Part shown: one piece after another, positions 2,156 to 41,191 of the stretch | Numbering within the stretch: position 1 is the stretch's first letter | Layout of the letters: the number at the start of each line of letters is the position of its first letter | Origin: Deltaproteobacteria bacterium HGW-Deltaproteobacteria-22 | GTDB taxonomy: Bacteria > Myxococcota_A > Polyangia > HGW-17 | Direction: 5' to 3' | Length of the DNA: 43,266 nt | Assembly (NCBI GenBank): GCA_002841825.1 | Contig: PHAZ01000007.1 | Location: 34,928 to 78,193 of the forward strand | Notes under the pieces: generated by a model | What the model was told of the DNA's origin: nothing | Database searches by the model: none | What the model saw: only the letters and a program-made list of their open reading frames with translations | Position numbers and translations under genes: made by a program

Positions 2156-4208
2156 TCAAGGCAGGACTTCGGCTGGAAAGAGGCGGGTGATCGTGGTGCC
2201 ATCGCCCAACTGGCCATAGTCGTTGAATCCCCAGCACCACACAAGACCGTCCCCTTTCACCGCGCAGGTGTAGATCTCGTCGGCGGCCACCACCTCGACG
2301 TCAGTGAGACCCGTCGTGGTCACGGACAGGGACCGGTTGATGTCGGTTCCGTCGCCCAGTTCACCCTGTCGGTTGTGTCCCCAGCACCGGAGCGTACCGT
2401 CCGAGAGCAGCGCGCACGAGTGGATGAAACCCAGCGCCAGGGAGACGGCGCCGCCGAGGCCTGACACGGTCAGCGGCGTCCAACTCTCGGTTGTGCTTCC
2501 GTGGCCGAGTTGGCCGTAGGTATTGTAGCCCCAGCAACGCACCGTTCCGTCTTCCAGCAGCGCGCAGGTGTGCTGGTTCCCCAGGGCGATGTGGATCGCG
2601 GTGGTGATGCCAGTGACGTTGGTCGGGGTGTTTCTGGTGGTGGTGGTGCCGTCGCCCAGCCGCCCGTTCAGGTTCACGCCCCAGCACTGCGCCTGTCCGG
2701 TGAGCAGCACCGCACAAGTATGGTAGTAGCCGCCGGCGATGACGCGCACGCCCGACAGCCCCGTGGGTGACACGGGCAGGAGGCGGTTGGTGCTCGAGCC
2801 GTCGCCGAGCTGGCTCGACCCGTTGCGGCCCCAGCAGCGCACGGTCCCATCCTGGAGCAGGGCACAGGCATGAAACGATCCGGCTGTGAGGGCCGTCACG
2901 CCGCTGAGATTCTGTACCGTCTGGGGCGTCGCATGATCCACCGTCGTGCCGTCGCCGAGCTGGCCGTAGCCGTTGTGCCCCCAGCACTTCACGGTTCCGT
3001 CCGAGATCAGCGCGCAGGCGAACTCGCTGCCGGCGACCAGATCGGTTGCGTCGGTCAGGCCCTGCACCGCCACGGGCACCAGGGAGCTCACCGTCGTCCC
3101 GTTACCCAGCTCGCCCACCGAGTTGCCTCCCCAGCATCTGGCGGAGCCGTCGGCGAGCAGGGCACAGGCGAAAAACTGACCGGTGGTGACGCGAACCGCC
3201 CGCTGGCAGGTGGATGAACTGATGACGCAGGCCGCCGAACAGGTGGGGGTGCCGCTGAAGAAGCCGAAGTCCCGGCAGGTGGCACCGGCCAGGTCGCTGC
3301 CGTCGCATTCCTCTTCAAAGAGGGCCTGCACCAGGTTGTCGCCGCAACGTCCCACGGCCGCGCAGCCGGACTCGTCCAGGGCGGTGCAGGTGTCGTTGCA
3401 GCCGAGATCTCCGCCGTACCATCCCCGCGATTCACAGGTCTGGCCTCCCACGTCCCCGATCTCGCAGATCTCGCCGTCGCCGGCCTGGATGATGCTGTCC
3501 CCGCATTTGCCGAAGCTCGCGCAGTCGCCGAGGTTGAAGTGACAGAAATTGTCACATGTCAGGGTGCCGCCGTAATAGCCGAGGCTCTCGCAGGTGGAGG
3601 AGTCGAGCTCGGATCCGTCGCACTCCTCGCCGTAGGTCCCCTGAACGGTGCTGTCTCCGCACTTGCCGAAATTCTGGCAACTCTCGAGGTCGTACAGGCA
3701 GTCAAACTCACCACACGCGAGGGTGCCACCGTACCAACCGAGGCTCTCGCAGGTCTCCCCGTCGAGGTCGTCACCTTCGCAGTCCTCAAAGCGATGAACA
3801 ATCAAATCATCACCACACGTGATCGAATATTCGCAGCCCGTGGTGTCGTACCGGCAGAACTCGTTGCAGCCGAGGTTGCCGACACCCAGGCCCAGGCTGG
3901 TGCAGGACTCGGCCGACAGGTCGTCGCCCTCGCACTGCTCGCCGAACCCGACCTGGATGATGTCGTCTCCACAGCGGGAGGAACACACCGACAAATCGAG
4001 GGTGCAGTCCGCACGACACACCAGCGGATCGCTCTGCTGGTAGAAACCGAGCGCCTCGCAGTTGATCGCGGAGGTGGCCTCGCCGTCGCACGCCTCGCCC
4101 GGATCGAGCACGCCGTCGCCGCAGTTGTCCACGATTTTCACCTCGGCTTTGCATCCAGAAAGGACATAGATTAATAAATAAAGCGGGAGGGCTGATCTGA
4201 ATCCTCAT
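2156..4208 (-). CDS. Cys-rich CGD-repeat plus RCC1 seven-bladed propeller lipoprotein, with an apparent +1 frameshift in the signal peptide
   Basis: The main frame runs from 4141 (GTG) to 2156 and gives 661 residues. It has six Cys-rich modules starting CGDG/CGDD/CGDS/CGDN (residues about 7-315), each with ECDG- or CEGD-like continuations, then seven RCC1-type blades marked by CWGxNxxGxLGxGT. The fold is probably a disulfide-rich stalk carrying a beta-propeller on the cell surface. Upstream in the same frame lie a hydrophobic stretch and a lipobox (LLIYVLSGC) but no start codon, because a TGA precedes them. An ATG at 4206-4208, with AAGGAG six bases before it (4215-4220) and a promoter at 4251-4279, is in the other frame. 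Removing one base after codon 4 gives MRIQ joined to SALPLYLLIYVLSGC, a textbook lipoprotein signal. Either the sequence has a one-base error or the gene is broken or shifted. Ligand unknown. Confidence 0.8.
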
Positions 4209-22124: not shown

Positions 22125-23822
22125 CTATTTTCTGCGGCGACGCCGGATGATCACCGGAATGAACGCGAGCAGCAGCATCCATCCACCACCGGAGCGGGGT
22201 CGGGCCGAGGTTGAACAACCCGAATCGGATGCTTCTTTCTTCTTGCAGGCGACTGAGTTCGCGCAGTCGGGGTCGAAGCAGTCCGCCCAGCCGTCCCCGT
22301 CATTGTCCAGCTGGTCCGCACAGGCGAGCTCCACCTGGCCGGCGCAGGCTGCATTGGAAGCGCAGTCGGAATCGGCACAGTCGGTCAGGCCATCCTGGTC
22401 ATTGTCGATGTCGTCGTCACACCAGTATTCCTGCGTCGGGGCCTGGCACACCTGCAGGGAGGCACAGTCGGTGTCGTCGCAGTCGGTGTCGTCGTCTCCG
22501 TCGTCGTCGATGGAGTTGGTGCAGTTCTCCGGGGGGAACACGCAGGTGGTGGTCAGGCTGAAGCGCCCCGGGTACCGGTAGCTCTCCACGACCAGGTAGG
22601 TCGGCGTCTCGCCCACGGTCACGGACATGGTCTCCGCGGCCAGGGCATCGTTGGCCGAGTACTGCAGGCAGGAAGAGGAGGCACAGGAGTAGCGGTCGCC
22701 CGAGAGCAGGAAGATGTCCAGGTCCTGATCCAGCGGGGTCATGGTTATCTGCACGACCGTTCCCGGCGGCATGGCCAGCTGGAAGGCGATCTCGGGTCCG
22801 GTCTCGGTCCCCTGTGCCATGCAGGCGTACTCGGTGAAGCCGGCGATTCCGTTCTTGGTCGTCGAGTTCACGGTCTCGTTGCAGAACAGGTAATAGTAAT
22901 CCTCGCACGGTGAGGACGGACAGGTACCGACGCCGGTGCAGGTGGAATCAGCGCAGTCGACCGCCCCGTCGCCGTCGTTGTCGATACTGTCGGTGCAGAT
23001 CTCCGCCGGCGCGCCGTTGATGAACGTGTTGATCTGGGACTCGTAGTTGCTGACCTCGGTGTACACGCCCGGTCCCGTGCACTCGGAATAGCCATACGAC
23101 GTGATGCCTGCGACGTACTTCACATTGTTGCGGGTGACCAGCCCTGGACCACCGGAGTCACCCTGGCAGGTGCCGCCGTTGTTCTGGTCGGTCCAGATCG
23201 TCCAGGGGGCCGCATAGGTGCCGCTCCACTGGGAAATCGTGCAGGGGTTCGAGGAGTGGCAGAGTCCTTCGATGCTGCCTGTGTAGATCCGGCGCACCAT
23301 GGAGTTGGAGTTCTCGTCGGAACCGTTGGTCAGGCCGTAACCGACAAAGGTGATCGCCGCGCCGATGTCCGCGTTGGTCAGCACCTGCGCCGCGGGCAGG
23401 ATGGGAATCGGCGTGACATCGCCGGGGGCGGGGCCGGAGAGCCGCAACAGGGCAATGTCGTAACGGATGTTCGTGGCGTTGTAGGACGGATGCACCCAGG
23501 ACTGGATGACCTCGCGGGACCGCGTGGCCATGTCGCAGTTGTTCAGATCCCTGCAGAAGAAGACGCTGAACTGGTCCACCGGCACGGGTGTGGTGGTGTT
23601 GCTGTACGTGACACAGTGGCCGGCTGTCATGAGCACATTGGGTGCGATCAGCGTGCCGCCGCAGGCGTAGCCGGCGTCCAGATAGAGGAAGGCCACCGCA
23701 TCGTTGGCGGCGCTGGTGTCGACCGAGCCGTTGATGATGAACGACTCCAGCGACGGTGGGTTCTCGGACCCGCATCCGAAAGCCATCACGAACAACACCG
23801 CAGACAGAAGCAACTTGCGCAT
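22125..23822 (-). CDS. Secreted trypsin-like serine protease with DNDGDG/DC repeats and MYXO-CTERM-like tail
   Basis: 565 residues from the ATG at 23822, which has GGAG eight bases upstream and begins a lipoprotein signal (MRKLLLSAVLFVMAFGC). The protease domain keeps the triad: His in LMTAGHC, Asp in RYDIALLRL and Ser in CQGDSGGP. An Asp-rich region follows with four motifs of the type C-x-D-x-x-D-N-D-x-D-G-x-x-D-C-x-D-x-x-C, the first right after the protease and the other three near the end; a beta-rich domain separates them. These probably bind calcium. The C-terminus, DSGCS then a hydrophobic helix and RRRRRK, matches the MYXO-CTERM pattern. Having both an N-terminal lipobox and a C-terminal sorting tail is odd. 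Confidence 0.88.
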   Translation of the reverse strand: MRKLLLSAVLFVMAFGCGSENPPSLESFIINGSVDTSAANDAVAFLYLDAGYACGGTLIAPNVLMTAGHCVTYSNTTTPVPVDQFSVFFCRDLNNCDMATRSREVIQSWVHPSYNATNIRYDIALLRLSGPAPGDVTPIPILPAAQVLTNADIGAAITFVGYGLTNGSDENSNSMVRRIYTGSIEGLCHSSNPCTISQWSGTYAAPWTIWTDQNNGGTCQGDSGGPGLVTRNNVKYVAGITSYGYSECTGPGVYTEVSNYESQINTFINGAPAEICTDSIDNDGDGAVDCADSTCTGVGTCPSSPCEDYYYLFCNETVNSTTKNGIAGFTEYACMAQGTETGPEIAFQLAMPPGTVVQITMTPLDQDLDIFLLSGDRYSCASSSCLQYSANDALAAETMSVTVGETPTYLVVESYRYPGRFSLTTTCVFPPENCTNSIDDDGDDDTDCDDTDCASLQVCQAPTQEYWCDDDIDNDQDGLTDCADSDCASNAACAGQVELACADQLDNDGDGWADCFDPDCANSVACKKKEASDSGCSTSARPRSGGGWMLLLAFIPVIIRRRRRK

Positions 23823-23839
23823 GACACTGACTCCAGACC

Positions 23840-23854
23840 GGCGGAGAATCCGCC
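23840..23854. other. Perfect hairpin ahead of the protease ribosome site
   Basis: GGCGGA-N3-TCCGCC, a 6-bp perfect stem, ends some six bases before the GGAG ribosome site in the predicted 5' leader. On the plus strand it is followed by ATTTTT, but no plus-strand gene ends there, so a leader role is more likely than termination. Confidence 0.45.
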
Positions 23855-23924
23855 ATTTTTCAGATAGCATGGAAAGTCGAAATCATAAATACGCCTTGAG
23901 TATCAAGGACTTTCCACGAAAAAG

Positions 23925-23971: not shown

Positions 23972-25111
23972 TCAATTCTCGAGGCAGGTCAGGGTATCGG
24001 AGAGCAGGAAATCCTCGTAGTGACTCTGGTACCCGCAGCCCTCGCACACGATGGGCTGGGTCTGCTCCATGCCGGCGTTGTCCCCGATGATGAACGTCTG
24101 GGCTTTGGAGACACCCACCGCGTCATAGGCCCAGACGTCGGTGTCGGCGTTGCCGTAGGCCCGCACCAACTCCAGCCCGCAGGTGGCGATCAGTCCCTCG
24201 AGATATTCGGTCTTGTACGCCTGGGTCTCCTGACCGCTGACCGTCGTGCCGCTGTCGGAGGTGAACCGGACGGAATGGAACGGCATGGCATGATCGGCCA
24301 GCCACTGCCTCGTCTCCACCGCGAGCCAGTAGGGGCGACCCGTCACCATGACGACATGAAAGCCATGTTCTACGTAGTGCTGCACCACGAGGTCCGCGTA
24401 GGGATACATCTCGGCGGTCGAGAACCCTGCCCAGTCCTGCATCACCTCGGCATCGGAGGTGGTCAACGTGCCGTCGATGTCGAACACCACAGCCTGGCGG
24501 TTCGTCCCGATCACCGTGACGTACCCGACGGCCTCGGTGAGATCTCCGGCGACCACGCCACGGAGCATGTACGTTCCGGCACCCAGCCCGCCAATCTGGA
24601 TCTGGATCTTGCCGTCGGTATCGGTCAGGAAGCGGCCCAGAAACTCCCAGTCGCTCCTGCCGGTCCCCCAGAGGTAGACCAGAATCCATTCATCCTGCAG
24701 ATCCTTGTGCAGGGCGCTGTTGTAGTCGAATTTGGCGGTGACGGTCACCGGCGTGTTCTCGGGCACCATCTCATCGTGCATCATGTGGTACGGACTGCCG
24801 CTGGCCGCGGTGGTGGACGAAATGATCGAGTGGTTCCATTCCTCGTCTGGCGGGTAACTGAACGGTGGAACGTGCATCAGCGTTTCATCGACCGCGCAGG
24901 GCACCGGATCGACGCTGCCGTCGCCGTTGTCGTCGGCTGCATCCTCCACGAGATCCACCTCGGGAACGTCCTGGCCCGCGTCGCTCTGGTTGTTGAGGTT
25001 GTTTGCATTATTGGTATTGTTAATATGATTATTAATATTATTTGAACGACCAGCCGGATCCGAACAACCAAGTATAAAAAATAAAAGGATGAAAGGAAGT
25101 GAGGTTCTCAT
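23972..25111 (-). CDS. Lipoprotein with lipin/Ned1/Smp2-type (LNS2) HAD phosphatase domain
   Basis: 379 residues from the ATG at 25111, which starts a lipoprotein signal (MRTSLPFILLFFILGC); no ribosome site is obvious. An Asn-rich spacer (about residues 22-42) and an Asp-rich segment follow. Residues about 120-205 form a beta-rich domain. The C-terminal half is LNS2-like: VVFDIDGTLTTSDAEV (nucleophile DxDGT), VVMVTGRPYWLA, QAYKTEYLEGLI, RAYGNADTDVWAYDAVGVSK and TFIIGDNAG. Both catalytic Asp residues are kept, unlike in PITP-type LNS2 domains. Eukaryotic lipins dephosphorylate phosphatidate in the cytosol; here the enzyme would be exported and anchored, and its substrate is unknown. It is the first gene of the minus-strand half of the window. 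Confidence 0.85.
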   Translation of the reverse strand: MRTSLPFILLFFILGCSDPAGRSNNINNHINNTNNANNLNNQSDAGQDVPEVDLVEDAADDNGDGSVDPVPCAVDETLMHVPPFSYPPDEEWNHSIISSTTAASGSPYHMMHDEMVPENTPVTVTAKFDYNSALHKDLQDEWILVYLWGTGRSDWEFLGRFLTDTDGKIQIQIGGLGAGTYMLRGVVAGDLTEAVGYVTVIGTNRQAVVFDIDGTLTTSDAEVMQDWAGFSTAEMYPYADLVVQHYVEHGFHVVMVTGRPYWLAVETRQWLADHAMPFHSVRFTSDSGTTVSGQETQAYKTEYLEGLIATCGLELVRAYGNADTDVWAYDAVGVSKAQTFIIGDNAGMEQTQPIVCEGCGYQSHYEDFLLSDTLTCLEN

Positions 25112-36412: not shown

Positions 36413-36442
36413 TTGGCGATTGTTCGCATACATGGTAATAAT
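36413..36442 (+). promoter_or_regulatory. Possible promoter for the prkA cluster
   Basis: TTGGCG (36413-36418) is followed after 18 bp by AATAAT (36437-36442). It begins right at the AI-2E gene stop. The AGGAGGA ribosome site for prkA (36451-36457) follows. Spacing is slightly long, so this is a weak call. Confidence 0.35.
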
Positions 36443-36463
36443 ACCGACACAGGAGGACGACGG

Positions 36464-38542
<2,079 letters not shown>

Positions 38543-38561
38543 AACCCACGGCAGGTGACCT

Positions 38562-39671
38562 ATGAGCCAGCGAATCGATCCGGATCACAGCCGCTTCCGC
38601 CAGATCGTGCGCGGACAGATCAAGGGAAATCTGCGCAAGTACATCTCCAGTGGAGAACTGATCGGCAAGAAGGGCAAGGATCGCGTCACGATCCCGATGC
38701 CCAGCATCGATCTGCCCCGCTTCAAGTACGGTTCCAAGGATCAGGGCGGCGTCTCCCAGGGCCCCGGGGACGTCGGGGACGGTCTCGGCTCGGATCCGCA
38801 GTCCGGAGATGGCGAGGGCCAGGCCGGAAACCAGCCAGGGCAGCATGAGATGGAGGCCGAGTTTACCCTCGAGGAGCTCGCGCGCATCCTCGGAGAGGAA
38901 CTCGAACTGCCGCACATCGAGCCCAAGGGCATGCGGACCATCCGCGCCCCGCGCGACAAGTACAACGCCATTCGCCGCATCGGCCCGGAGAGCCTCAAAC
39001 ACTTCAAGCGCACCTTCAGGGAGGCGCTCAAGCGCCAGATCATCATGGGCTCCTACAACCGTGAACAGCCCATCATCGTTCCACGCAGGGAGGATCGCCG
39101 CTACCGCTCCTGGAAGGAGAGCGTCGTCCCCCAGACCAACGCAGTGATCGTGTATCTCATGGATGTGTCCGGATCCATGGGGGATGAGCAGAAGACCATG
39201 GTGCGCATCGAGAGCTTCTGGATCGACACCTGGTTGCGCTACCAGTACAAGGGCATCGAGAGCCGCTACATCATTCACGACACCAAGGCCCGCGAGGTCG
39301 ACCAGGACACCTTCTACAGCACCAAGGAGAGCGGAGGGACGATGATCTCCTCGGCCTACCTGCTGACGGCGGACCTGATCGAGGCGGAATACCCGTCCGA
39401 CGCCTGGAACGTGTACGTGTTTCACTTCTCCGACGGCGACAACTGGTCCCGTGAGGACACCCAGAAGTGCTTCGACGCGCTCAAGGTCCGGCTGCTGCCG
39501 CGGATCAACCTGTTCGGCTACGGCCAGGTGAAGAGCCCCTACGGATCGGGCCAGTTTCTGCACGATCTCGAGGAAGCCTTTCCGCATCCCGAGAACCTGG
39601 TGCTCTCGCCGATCGAGGACCGCAACGCCATCATGGACTCCATCCGGGACTTCCTGGGAAAGGGCAAGTGA
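38562..39671 (+). CDS. yeaH: YeaH/YhbH (DUF444) VWA-like protein
   Basis: 369 residues; AGGTGA sits just before the ATG. The N-terminus ([20 protein letters not shown]) and the region [20 protein letters not shown] are typical of the family. A VWA-like domain in the second half carries the MIDAS motif DVSGSMG (about residue 204) and later YFHFSDGDN-type residues ([13 protein letters not shown]). It probably acts with PrkA and SpoVR as a metal-dependent partner. The stop overlaps the SpoVR start. Confidence 0.94.
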
Positions 39672-41191
39672 ACCGCATGCTGCCTCCGTACCTCCAGGAA
39701 ATGCAGACACAGGTGGAGACCGTCGCCCACGCCGCGGGCCTGGACTTCTTCGAGACGCGGTTCATCCTTGTGGACACCAAGACCCTCAACGAGGTCGCAG
39801 CCTACGGCGGCTTCCCTTCGCGCTACCCGCACTGGCGCTTCGGCATGGAATACGACCGGCTGGCCAAGGGCTCCCGTTACGGGCTGAGCAAGATCTACGA
39901 GTTGGTGATCAACAATGATCCCTGCTACGCCTACCTGCTGGAAGGAAACAACCTGGTCGACCAGAAGATGGTCATGGCCCACGTCATGGCCCACAACGAC
40001 TTCTTCAAGAACAACGTGTATTTCAAGTTCACCAACCGCAAGATGATCGACGAGATGGCCAACCATGCTGTGAAGGTACAAAAAATAATTGATCGTATCG
40101 GCATCGAGTCCGTGGAAAACTTCATCGACATCTGCCACAGCATGGACAACCTGATCGATCCCTACAGCCTCTTCATCGCCCGGCCGCCCGCGACCCGCCG
40201 CGAGCTCGAGGACCTCATCGAGGAGGCCCGGCTGGCCGCAGCCGACGCACCCGAGGCGGAGAAAAAGGGCGCCGTGCGCTCCTACATGAAGGGCTTTCTC
40301 GCAGGCGACCGGAAGAACGCCGCCGAGACGCCGGGACCTTCGATCGGCCTGCGGAAGGAGCCGATCAACCCCACGCGCGACGTGCTGGGCTTCCTTCTCA
40401 ATTGTGCGCCACTGGAGGACTGGCAGCGCACGATCCTGGAGATCGTCCGCGAGGAGGCGTACTATTTCGCCCCCCAGGCCATGACCAAGATCATGAATGA
40501 GGGATGGGCCACCTTCTGGCACAGCCGCCTGATGACACATCACCTGATCGACGCCTCCGAGGTCATCCAGTTTGCGCACACCACGTCCGGTGTCACCGTC
40601 CAGGCACCGGGTCAGTTGAACCCTTACAAGATGGGCGTGGAACTGTTCCGCGACATCGAGCACCGATGGAACCGCGGCATGCACGGCAAGGCCTGGCGCG
40701 ACTGCGATGACTACGAGAAGAAAAAACACTGGGACACCGGCGCCGGAGAGGGTCTGCAGAAGATCTTCGAGGTGCGCCGCATGTTCAACGACGTCACCTT
40801 CATCGACGAGTTTCTCACGCCCGAATTCCTGACCGAGCGTCTGTTCTACACCTACGACTACAGCCGCTCCAAGAGCGAGTACGTCATCTCCTCGCGGGAG
40901 TTCTCGGAGATCAAGAGCCGCCTGCTGTTCCAGTTGACCAACGGCGGACATCCGATCATCGCGGTGACCGATTCCGACTACGTCAACCGCGGCGAGCTGC
41001 TGCTCGAACACCGGCACTACGGTGTGGATCTCGAAGTGCCCTATGCCAAGAGCACGCTGGAGAACCTCTTCACCATCTGGAAAAAGCCCGTCAATCTCGT
41101 CACGAAGGTCAAGGATCAGCCCACGCTGCTGAGCTTCGACGGTTCGGATCACTCTTCCCGGGAACTACCCGTGTCCGCGGTAGGCGGTTGA
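39668..41191 (+). CDS. spoVR: SpoVR family protein (YcgB)
   Basis: 507 residues from a GTG at 39668 that overlaps the yeaH stop (GTGA), close to E. coli YcgB at 510; an ATG at 39677 is the alternative. Family blocks are clear: [60 protein letters not shown] then [30 protein letters not shown] and [20 protein letters not shown]. Bacillus SpoVR is needed for spore cortex formation; in non-sporulating bacteria the trio is linked to stationary-phase survival. It is the third gene of the prkA cluster. Confidence 0.95.

Follow-up and report, generated by a model that had tools for sequence, protein, structure and literature searches.

The closest described counterparts of the protein analysed here are the animal PITPNM proteins (Nir, RdgB), which are cytosolic. 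The Nir LNS2 domain lacks the catalytic Asp of the DxDxT motif and another Mg-binding residue and is held to sense phosphatidate (PA) and not to cleave it (PMC12419160; preprint PMC10925316); the PA-binding Lys of Nir1 is K820 (PMC12419160). The Nir PA-binding domain now serves to probe PA in living cells and is understood as a lipin relative that has lost catalysis. For the lipin/Pah protein Tt Pah2, two papers describe an Ig-like domain that helps to form a flat membrane face (PMC7066176) and a lipin signature made up of Asp155, which serves Mg, and Arg269, which serves PA; the exchange R269E impairs the use of PA but not the hydrolysis of pNPP (PMC12657724).

A search of the open-access literature by title and start of abstract, with subscription papers outside its scope, found no paper on bacterial members of the PITPNM-type LNS2 family, and a term search of PMC12419160, PMC10925316, PMC12657724 and PMC7066176 gave no occurrence of 'bacteri'.

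Gene and domain organisation

The window, by which we mean the whole 43,266-nucleotide stretch of DNA that was analysed, carries on its minus strand (25111 to 23972) an open reading frame of 379 amino acids, uninterrupted by stops, whose orthologues from two congeneric genomes are 88–91% identical. Its features are as follows.

23972..25111, minus strand: coding sequence, 379 aa, predicted exported lipoprotein with beta-sandwich and LNS2 (HAD) domains (ORF translation, Pfam)
25064..25111, minus strand: predicted signal peptide and lipobox, MRTSLPFILLFFILGC, with Cys16 and Ser as the +2 residue (sequence)
24986..25042, minus strand: Asn-rich spacer, residues 24–42 (sequence; N-terminus matches in the same genome)
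24512..24790, minus strand: PITM1–3 type beta-sandwich (Ig-like), residues 108–200, with conserved H109xxxD113 (PF24695, model)
24083..24490, minus strand: LNS2 domain of PITPNM type (HAD fold), residues 208–343 (PF24694, fold comparison)
24452..24481, minus strand: DIDGTLTTSD, with predicted nucleophile D211, D213, T215 and D220 (equivalent to Tt Pah2 Asp155) (alignment)
24332..24343, minus strand: TGRP, residues 257–260, R259 being equivalent to Tt Pah2 Arg193 (alignment)
24212..24214, minus strand: Lys300, predicted catalytic/PA-binding Lys (equivalent to Tt Pah2 Lys244 and the Nir LNS2 Lys position) (alignment)
24137..24154, minus strand: GNADTD, residues 320–325, with A322 at the position of the lipin PA-recognition Arg269 (alignment)

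The arrangement described in the original prediction, an LNS2 domain with DIDGT, TGRP, Lys and GNADTD motifs following a lipobox, an Asn-rich spacer and a beta domain, is thus present in every element. Among the nearest relatives (88–91% identity) the LNS2 domain has a dN/dS of 0.07–0.18 and is under purifying selection; this value, together with the mean pLDDT of the model described below, places the feature well beyond chance.

Relationship to PITPNM/Nir proteins and lipins

The Pfam model of the PITM1–3 LNS2 domain (PF24694) matches the window protein at 105.7 bits (cut-off 27.7) over residues 208–343 and that of the PITM1–3 beta-sandwich (PF24695) at 55.9 bits (cut-off 27.7) over residues 108–200, whereas the lipin-type LNS2 model PF08235 reaches only 36.5 bits (cut-off 32.3). 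Within a set of 82 family sequences (A2), the PITM LNS2 model matched all 82 and the beta-sandwich model 76 (E ≤ 0.001); the Pfam models evidently recognise bacterial family sequences. The APP1 model PF09949 gave no match to the window protein at E ≤ 0.01, and the Pfam scan of the protein found neither PITP nor DDHD domains. Since these two are absent and a signal peptide is present, the window protein is not a full-length PITPNM protein.

The only strong sequence match in the PDB was the C-terminal domain of human PITPNM1 (Nir2), at E 1.4e-22 and covering both domains. A profile of the window protein and 19 bacterial relatives matched PITPNM1 at E 1.5e-49 and Tetrahymena lipin at E 4.5e-20, the latter mostly in the LNS2 part. 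With BLAST, run as were the trees on 80 of the 82 A2 sequences (the second copies at L033 and L039 being used in place of the first), the best bacterial match scored 144 bits (36% identity) with PITPNM1 against 67 bits with Tt Pah2. An AlphaFold model of residues 65–379, built from 82 sequences (mean pLDDT 92.8, pTM 0.90), found as its best fold matches nine chains of the Nir2 C-terminal domain, with Tt Pah2 next. In VIA-align the model superposed on Nir2 (9jzp_A) with Z 29.6 and 2.2 Å over 253 residues, both domains included, on the PA-complexed Nir2 domain with Z 29.3 and an rmsd of 2.2 Å over 251 residues, and on Tt Pah2 with Z 20.1 and 3.1 Å over 236 residues.

Because the Pfam, PDB sequence, BLAST and fold comparisons agree, the window protein is shown, at the level of sequence and model, to be a beta-sandwich and LNS2 unit of the PITPNM/Nir/RdgB type ('PILS'), and is predicted to be built and to work like one. 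The label 'lipin-like' given to it originally is therefore imprecise: the PITPNM/Nir type is much closer in every comparison, the lipin signature Arg is absent, and we reject lipin as the nearest relative.

Predicted export and lipid anchoring

The hydrophobic N-terminus of the window protein runs into an FILGC lipobox at residues 12–16, ending in Cys16 and followed by NNINNHINNTNNANNLNN. These features agree with the original view that the protein is exported from the cytoplasm on a lipid anchor, and make the anchor probable. By a crude, home-made rule, an export signal was found in 70 of 78 relatives (the ORFs of 81 relatives, less three cut upstream), 40 of them with a lipobox and 30 with an AxA-type signal; at least four of the eight with neither (L034, L051, L056, L076) resemble signal peptides by eye. 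Lipoboxes were common among the Myxococcota members and AxA signals among the Gamma- and Betaproteobacteria members. The background among neighbouring ORFs, by a similar rule that differs slightly from that used for the relatives, was 223 of 762, and export is thus predicted to be a property of the whole family and not of a single gene. Cys72 is conserved in 71 of the 82 family sequences.

Eight other places in the genome match the N-terminus and seven of these encode a lipobox and an Asn-rich spacer, a recurrent lipoprotein design in this genome (window 24986–25042; L203–L209). Most of the other Asn-rich-spacer lipoproteins have C-D-D from the Cys onwards, whereas the window protein has C-S-D. 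Under the lipoprotein sorting rule of E. coli, Ser in the +2 position would favour an outer-membrane location; we know of no proof of this rule in the group to which the present organism belongs.

Proposed function and substrate

Sequence and model show the domain identity, an intact active site, an export signal and purifying selection. The reading we prefer, which we put at about an even chance, is that the window protein is a Sec-exported, lipid-anchored, Mg-dependent HAD phosphatase of PILS build that acts on a PA-type lipid. After lipidation, the flexible Asn-rich spacer would let the two-domain unit lie flat on the membrane outside the cytoplasm, and the open active site would take the phosphomonoester head of a PA-type lipid, PA or lyso-PA. 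D211 would attack the phosphate, D213 would serve as acid/base and K300 would hold the phosphate, with acidic residues including D220 and D325 helping to bind Mg, and diacylglycerol and phosphate would be released. The enzyme may serve to clear or recycle PA, whether of the bacterium's envelope or of lipid from outside, and so yield phosphate.

The lipin PA-recognition signature is half present in the window protein. Using Tt Pah2 numbering, for which the PDB letters were checked against D146, D148, D155, R193, K244 and R269, the equivalent of Asp155 is D220, acidic (D or E) in 81/82 sequences of A2 and in 90/99 of a set collected without a motif filter; the equivalent of Arg269 is A322, and Arg is found there in only 2/82 and 2/99, respectively. 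Given A322 and the rarity of Arg in the relatives, PA specificity is not predicted by the lipin signature. Nir2 likewise has no equivalent of Arg269, yet has been solved with PA (title of 9jtz). With PITPNM/Nir as nearest kin and the lipin Arg absent, PA is a plausible though unproven substrate, and by kinship our best guess. Of the phosphatidate activity proposed originally, the phosphatase chemistry is upheld by the intact active site and PA-binding kin speak for the lipid, but the missing signature Arg leaves PA as no more than plausible. A short helix precedes the beta-sandwich at the site of the membrane-binding amphipathic helix of lipin and Nir1; its amphipathicity is only slightly above that of shuffled sequences (mean z 0.93, n = 78; shuffle p < 0.2 in 56%), which weakly suggests an amphipathic helix in the bacterial family.

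The absence of the lipin Arg would also suit a scavenging surface phosphatase, with the same export and HAD chemistry, that uses as substrates soluble phosphomonoesters (nucleotides, NMN, sugar phosphates) in the manner of class B/C acid phosphatases such as lipoprotein e(P4). This alternative is the strongest of those considered, although we judge it unlikely. The Acid_phosphat_B model (PF03767) matches 60/82 family sequences at E ≤ 0.001 but leaves the window protein itself at 25.6 bits, under the cut-off of 27; the class C acid phosphatase of Bacillus anthracis is among the fold matches at Z 9.6, but fold and sequence are much nearer to the PA-binding Nir2 (Z 29.6) and the PA-hydrolysing lipin (Z 20.1). 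No recurring lipid-metabolism gene was seen in the clustered flanking genes of the named loci (judged by eye, unannotated), in keeping with scavenging; against it, the Ig-like partner domain, part of the flat membrane face in Tt Pah2, is conserved in the bacterial family. To our knowledge class B/C acid phosphatases have no such domain.

Enzyme or sensor

The motifs of the window protein, DIDGT (211–215), TGRP (257–260), Lys300 and GNADTD (320–325), are all intact, which supports the original assignment of a catalytically intact LNS2-type HAD domain. D211, D213, T215, K300, G320 and D325 are invariant in A2 (n = 82), where the conservation of DxDGTLT is biased because the scan pattern required D[IV]DGTLT, while K300, G320, N321 and D325 lie outside the pattern. 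Protein and Pfam-model searches with no DxDxT filter yielded a set of 99 sequences, which includes the window protein and partly overlaps A2; 97 of the 99 retain the same six residues. Lys300 is kept in 82/82 and 98/99 of the two sets; PITPNM1 retains a Lys aligned with it, and K820 of Nir1 appears, from its position, to fall on this invariant residue. With the catalytic residues kept and only half of the lipin PA signature present, the exported LNS2 protein is well supported as a predicted phosphatase, and we infer PA as its substrate.

A second alternative is that the protein binds or senses PA or another lipid, as in animals, its active site being merely a pocket. The nearest solved relative does bind PA and is held not to hydrolyse it (PMC12419160), and two of the 99 bacterial relatives (L182, L193) look degenerate. 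We nevertheless regard this as improbable, since the bacterial proteins conserve both the catalytic D211 and an acidic residue at position 220, which PITPNM1 has lost, and none of the 10 long relatives scanned carries a PITP, DDHD or other extra domain.

The apparently broken active sites of L182 and L193 may be independent losses of catalysis, paralleling that in animals. Locus L030, the copy in Marinomonas sp. SBI8L, is split into two pieces by an in-frame stop, was left out of A2 and is possibly a pseudogene.

Distribution and gene neighbourhood

Members of the family were found, over the Pfam cut-off, in 77 of 282 genomes from the phylum of the window, which named relatives (L022, 91% identical) show to be Myxococcota, against three of 274 genomes from the class to which a Pseudoalteromonas chosen as centre belongs, itself one of the three. 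Named matches come from Myxococcota, Pseudomonadota, Spirochaetota, Bacillota (Orenia, Polycladospora), Planctomycetota and Holophagaceae. The suggestion that a bacterial lipin attacks foreign phospholipid in predation would gain from the frequency in Myxococcota and from an intact, exported active site, but is very improbable, as the protein is not a lipin by any comparison, no gene was seen recurring beside the family loci across distant relatives, and the family occurs also in Chitinimonas and in Massilia, Marinobacter and Orenia, the last three not being known to us as predators, so that we find no evidence for such a use.

At L033 and L039 (Massilia rubra, Chitinimonas prasina) two family members lie 1–3 kb apart on one contig, suggesting tandem duplication. 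Two plasmid records, both from Pseudoalteromonas and each of more than 1.2 Mb, carry a family member. Nine matches in viral contigs cover only part of the HAD domain (about residues 208–336) in ORFs of 385–749 aa and were rejected as family members; the phage matches among those listed, where annotated, are polynucleotide kinase/phosphatases or hypothetical proteins.

The LNS2 gene stands alone in the window, with a trypsin-like protease downstream and a divergent TPR protein upstream. The protease gene (22125–23870, minus strand) adjoins it and encodes acidic double-disulfide repeats and a MYXO-CTERM sorting tail. The largest cluster of flanking genes comprised seven loci, all Pseudoalteromonas, and an operon or multi-gene system was rejected, no partner gene being seen, on inspection by eye, to recur across distant relatives. 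The contig of a close relative is 94.4% identical to the window over 18 kb around the gene, and its local gene order therefore says little. PLDc_2 matches in the same genome lie on two other contigs and are uninformative for the LNS2 gene. Elsewhere the window encodes a 661-aa RCC1-repeat protein (2156–4141, minus strand), the RCC1 propeller being common in eukaryotes, and, within 36413–41191 on the plus strand, a PrkA kinase (36413–38542) near SpoVR (39467–41191), with an ORF at 38562–39671 between the two.

Origin of the animal sensor

In the trees, from which three long branches (L193, L182, L083) were left out, the window protein clusters with Pseudomonadota and a Spirochaete, apart from the other Myxococcota (5 rows; 99/95 and 99/97), suggesting that the gene has moved between phyla. 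Human PITPNM1 falls together with L073, L114 and L127, all with intact active sites (98/90 with lipin included, 99/88 with lipin excluded); L114 and L127 come from Myxococcota genomes and L073 is labelled only 'uncultured proteobacterium'. An AU test of a clade of PITPNM1 and lipin, a group specified after inspection of a quick tree, gave p 0.040. That the animal PITPNM sensor descends from a bacterial enzyme of the window-protein type is suggested and no more, given a single eukaryotic PITPNM sequence, the very long lipin branch, the post-hoc group and the odd letter make-up of PITPNM1.

On this basis we offer, tentatively and as rather less probable than the preferred reading of the protein itself, the view that the Nir/PITPNM PA sensor is a dead bacterial enzyme. 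Animals, or a near ancestor of theirs, would have acquired an exported phospholipid phosphatase like those of myxobacteria; there it would have lost the nucleophile, retained the PA pocket and come to act as a sensor at ER–plasma-membrane contacts. Bacteria, the present one among them, would continue to use the active enzyme outside the cytoplasm. The bacterial family, which shares both domains, lies nearer to the Nir domain than lipin does and has an intact active site, offers a direct test of the passage from enzyme to sensor, as well as stable proteins for structural work and assays. It further draws attention to an exported phosphatase, so far unstudied, of Myxococcota and marine Gammaproteobacteria.

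Comparison with known systems

The animal proteins PITPNM1–3 (Nir2, Nir3, Nir1; RdgB; PDB 9jtz, 9jzp, 9jz1) have both domains in the same order as the window protein, and H109xxxD113, R259, K300 and D325 are conserved in common. The PITPNM1 active site is degenerate, reading SIDGS where the window protein has an intact DIDGT: Ser stands at D211 and T215, and D220 and N321 are lost through gaps or changes. The animal unit is fused to other domains, whereas the window protein is predicted to be exported and stands alone.

With lipin/Pah (Tt Pah2, PDB 6tzy, 9d15) the window protein shares the Ig-like and HAD layout, the capless HAD domain with DxDxT, and equivalents of the Tt Pah2 DxDxT, Asp155, Arg193, Lys244 and GNxxTD. 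Its distance in sequence is much greater than from PITPNM, the signature Arg269 is replaced by Ala, and lipin is cytosolic with its Ig-like domain split by a long linker, whereas that of the predicted exported window protein is unsplit. The APP1-type phosphatidate phosphatase (PF09949) is likewise a HAD phosphatase, whose model matches 18/82 family sequences at E ≤ 0.001. The class B/C acid phosphatases (PF03767), some of which are surface lipoproteins, have in common with the window protein the HAD fold, export and a possible lipid anchor.
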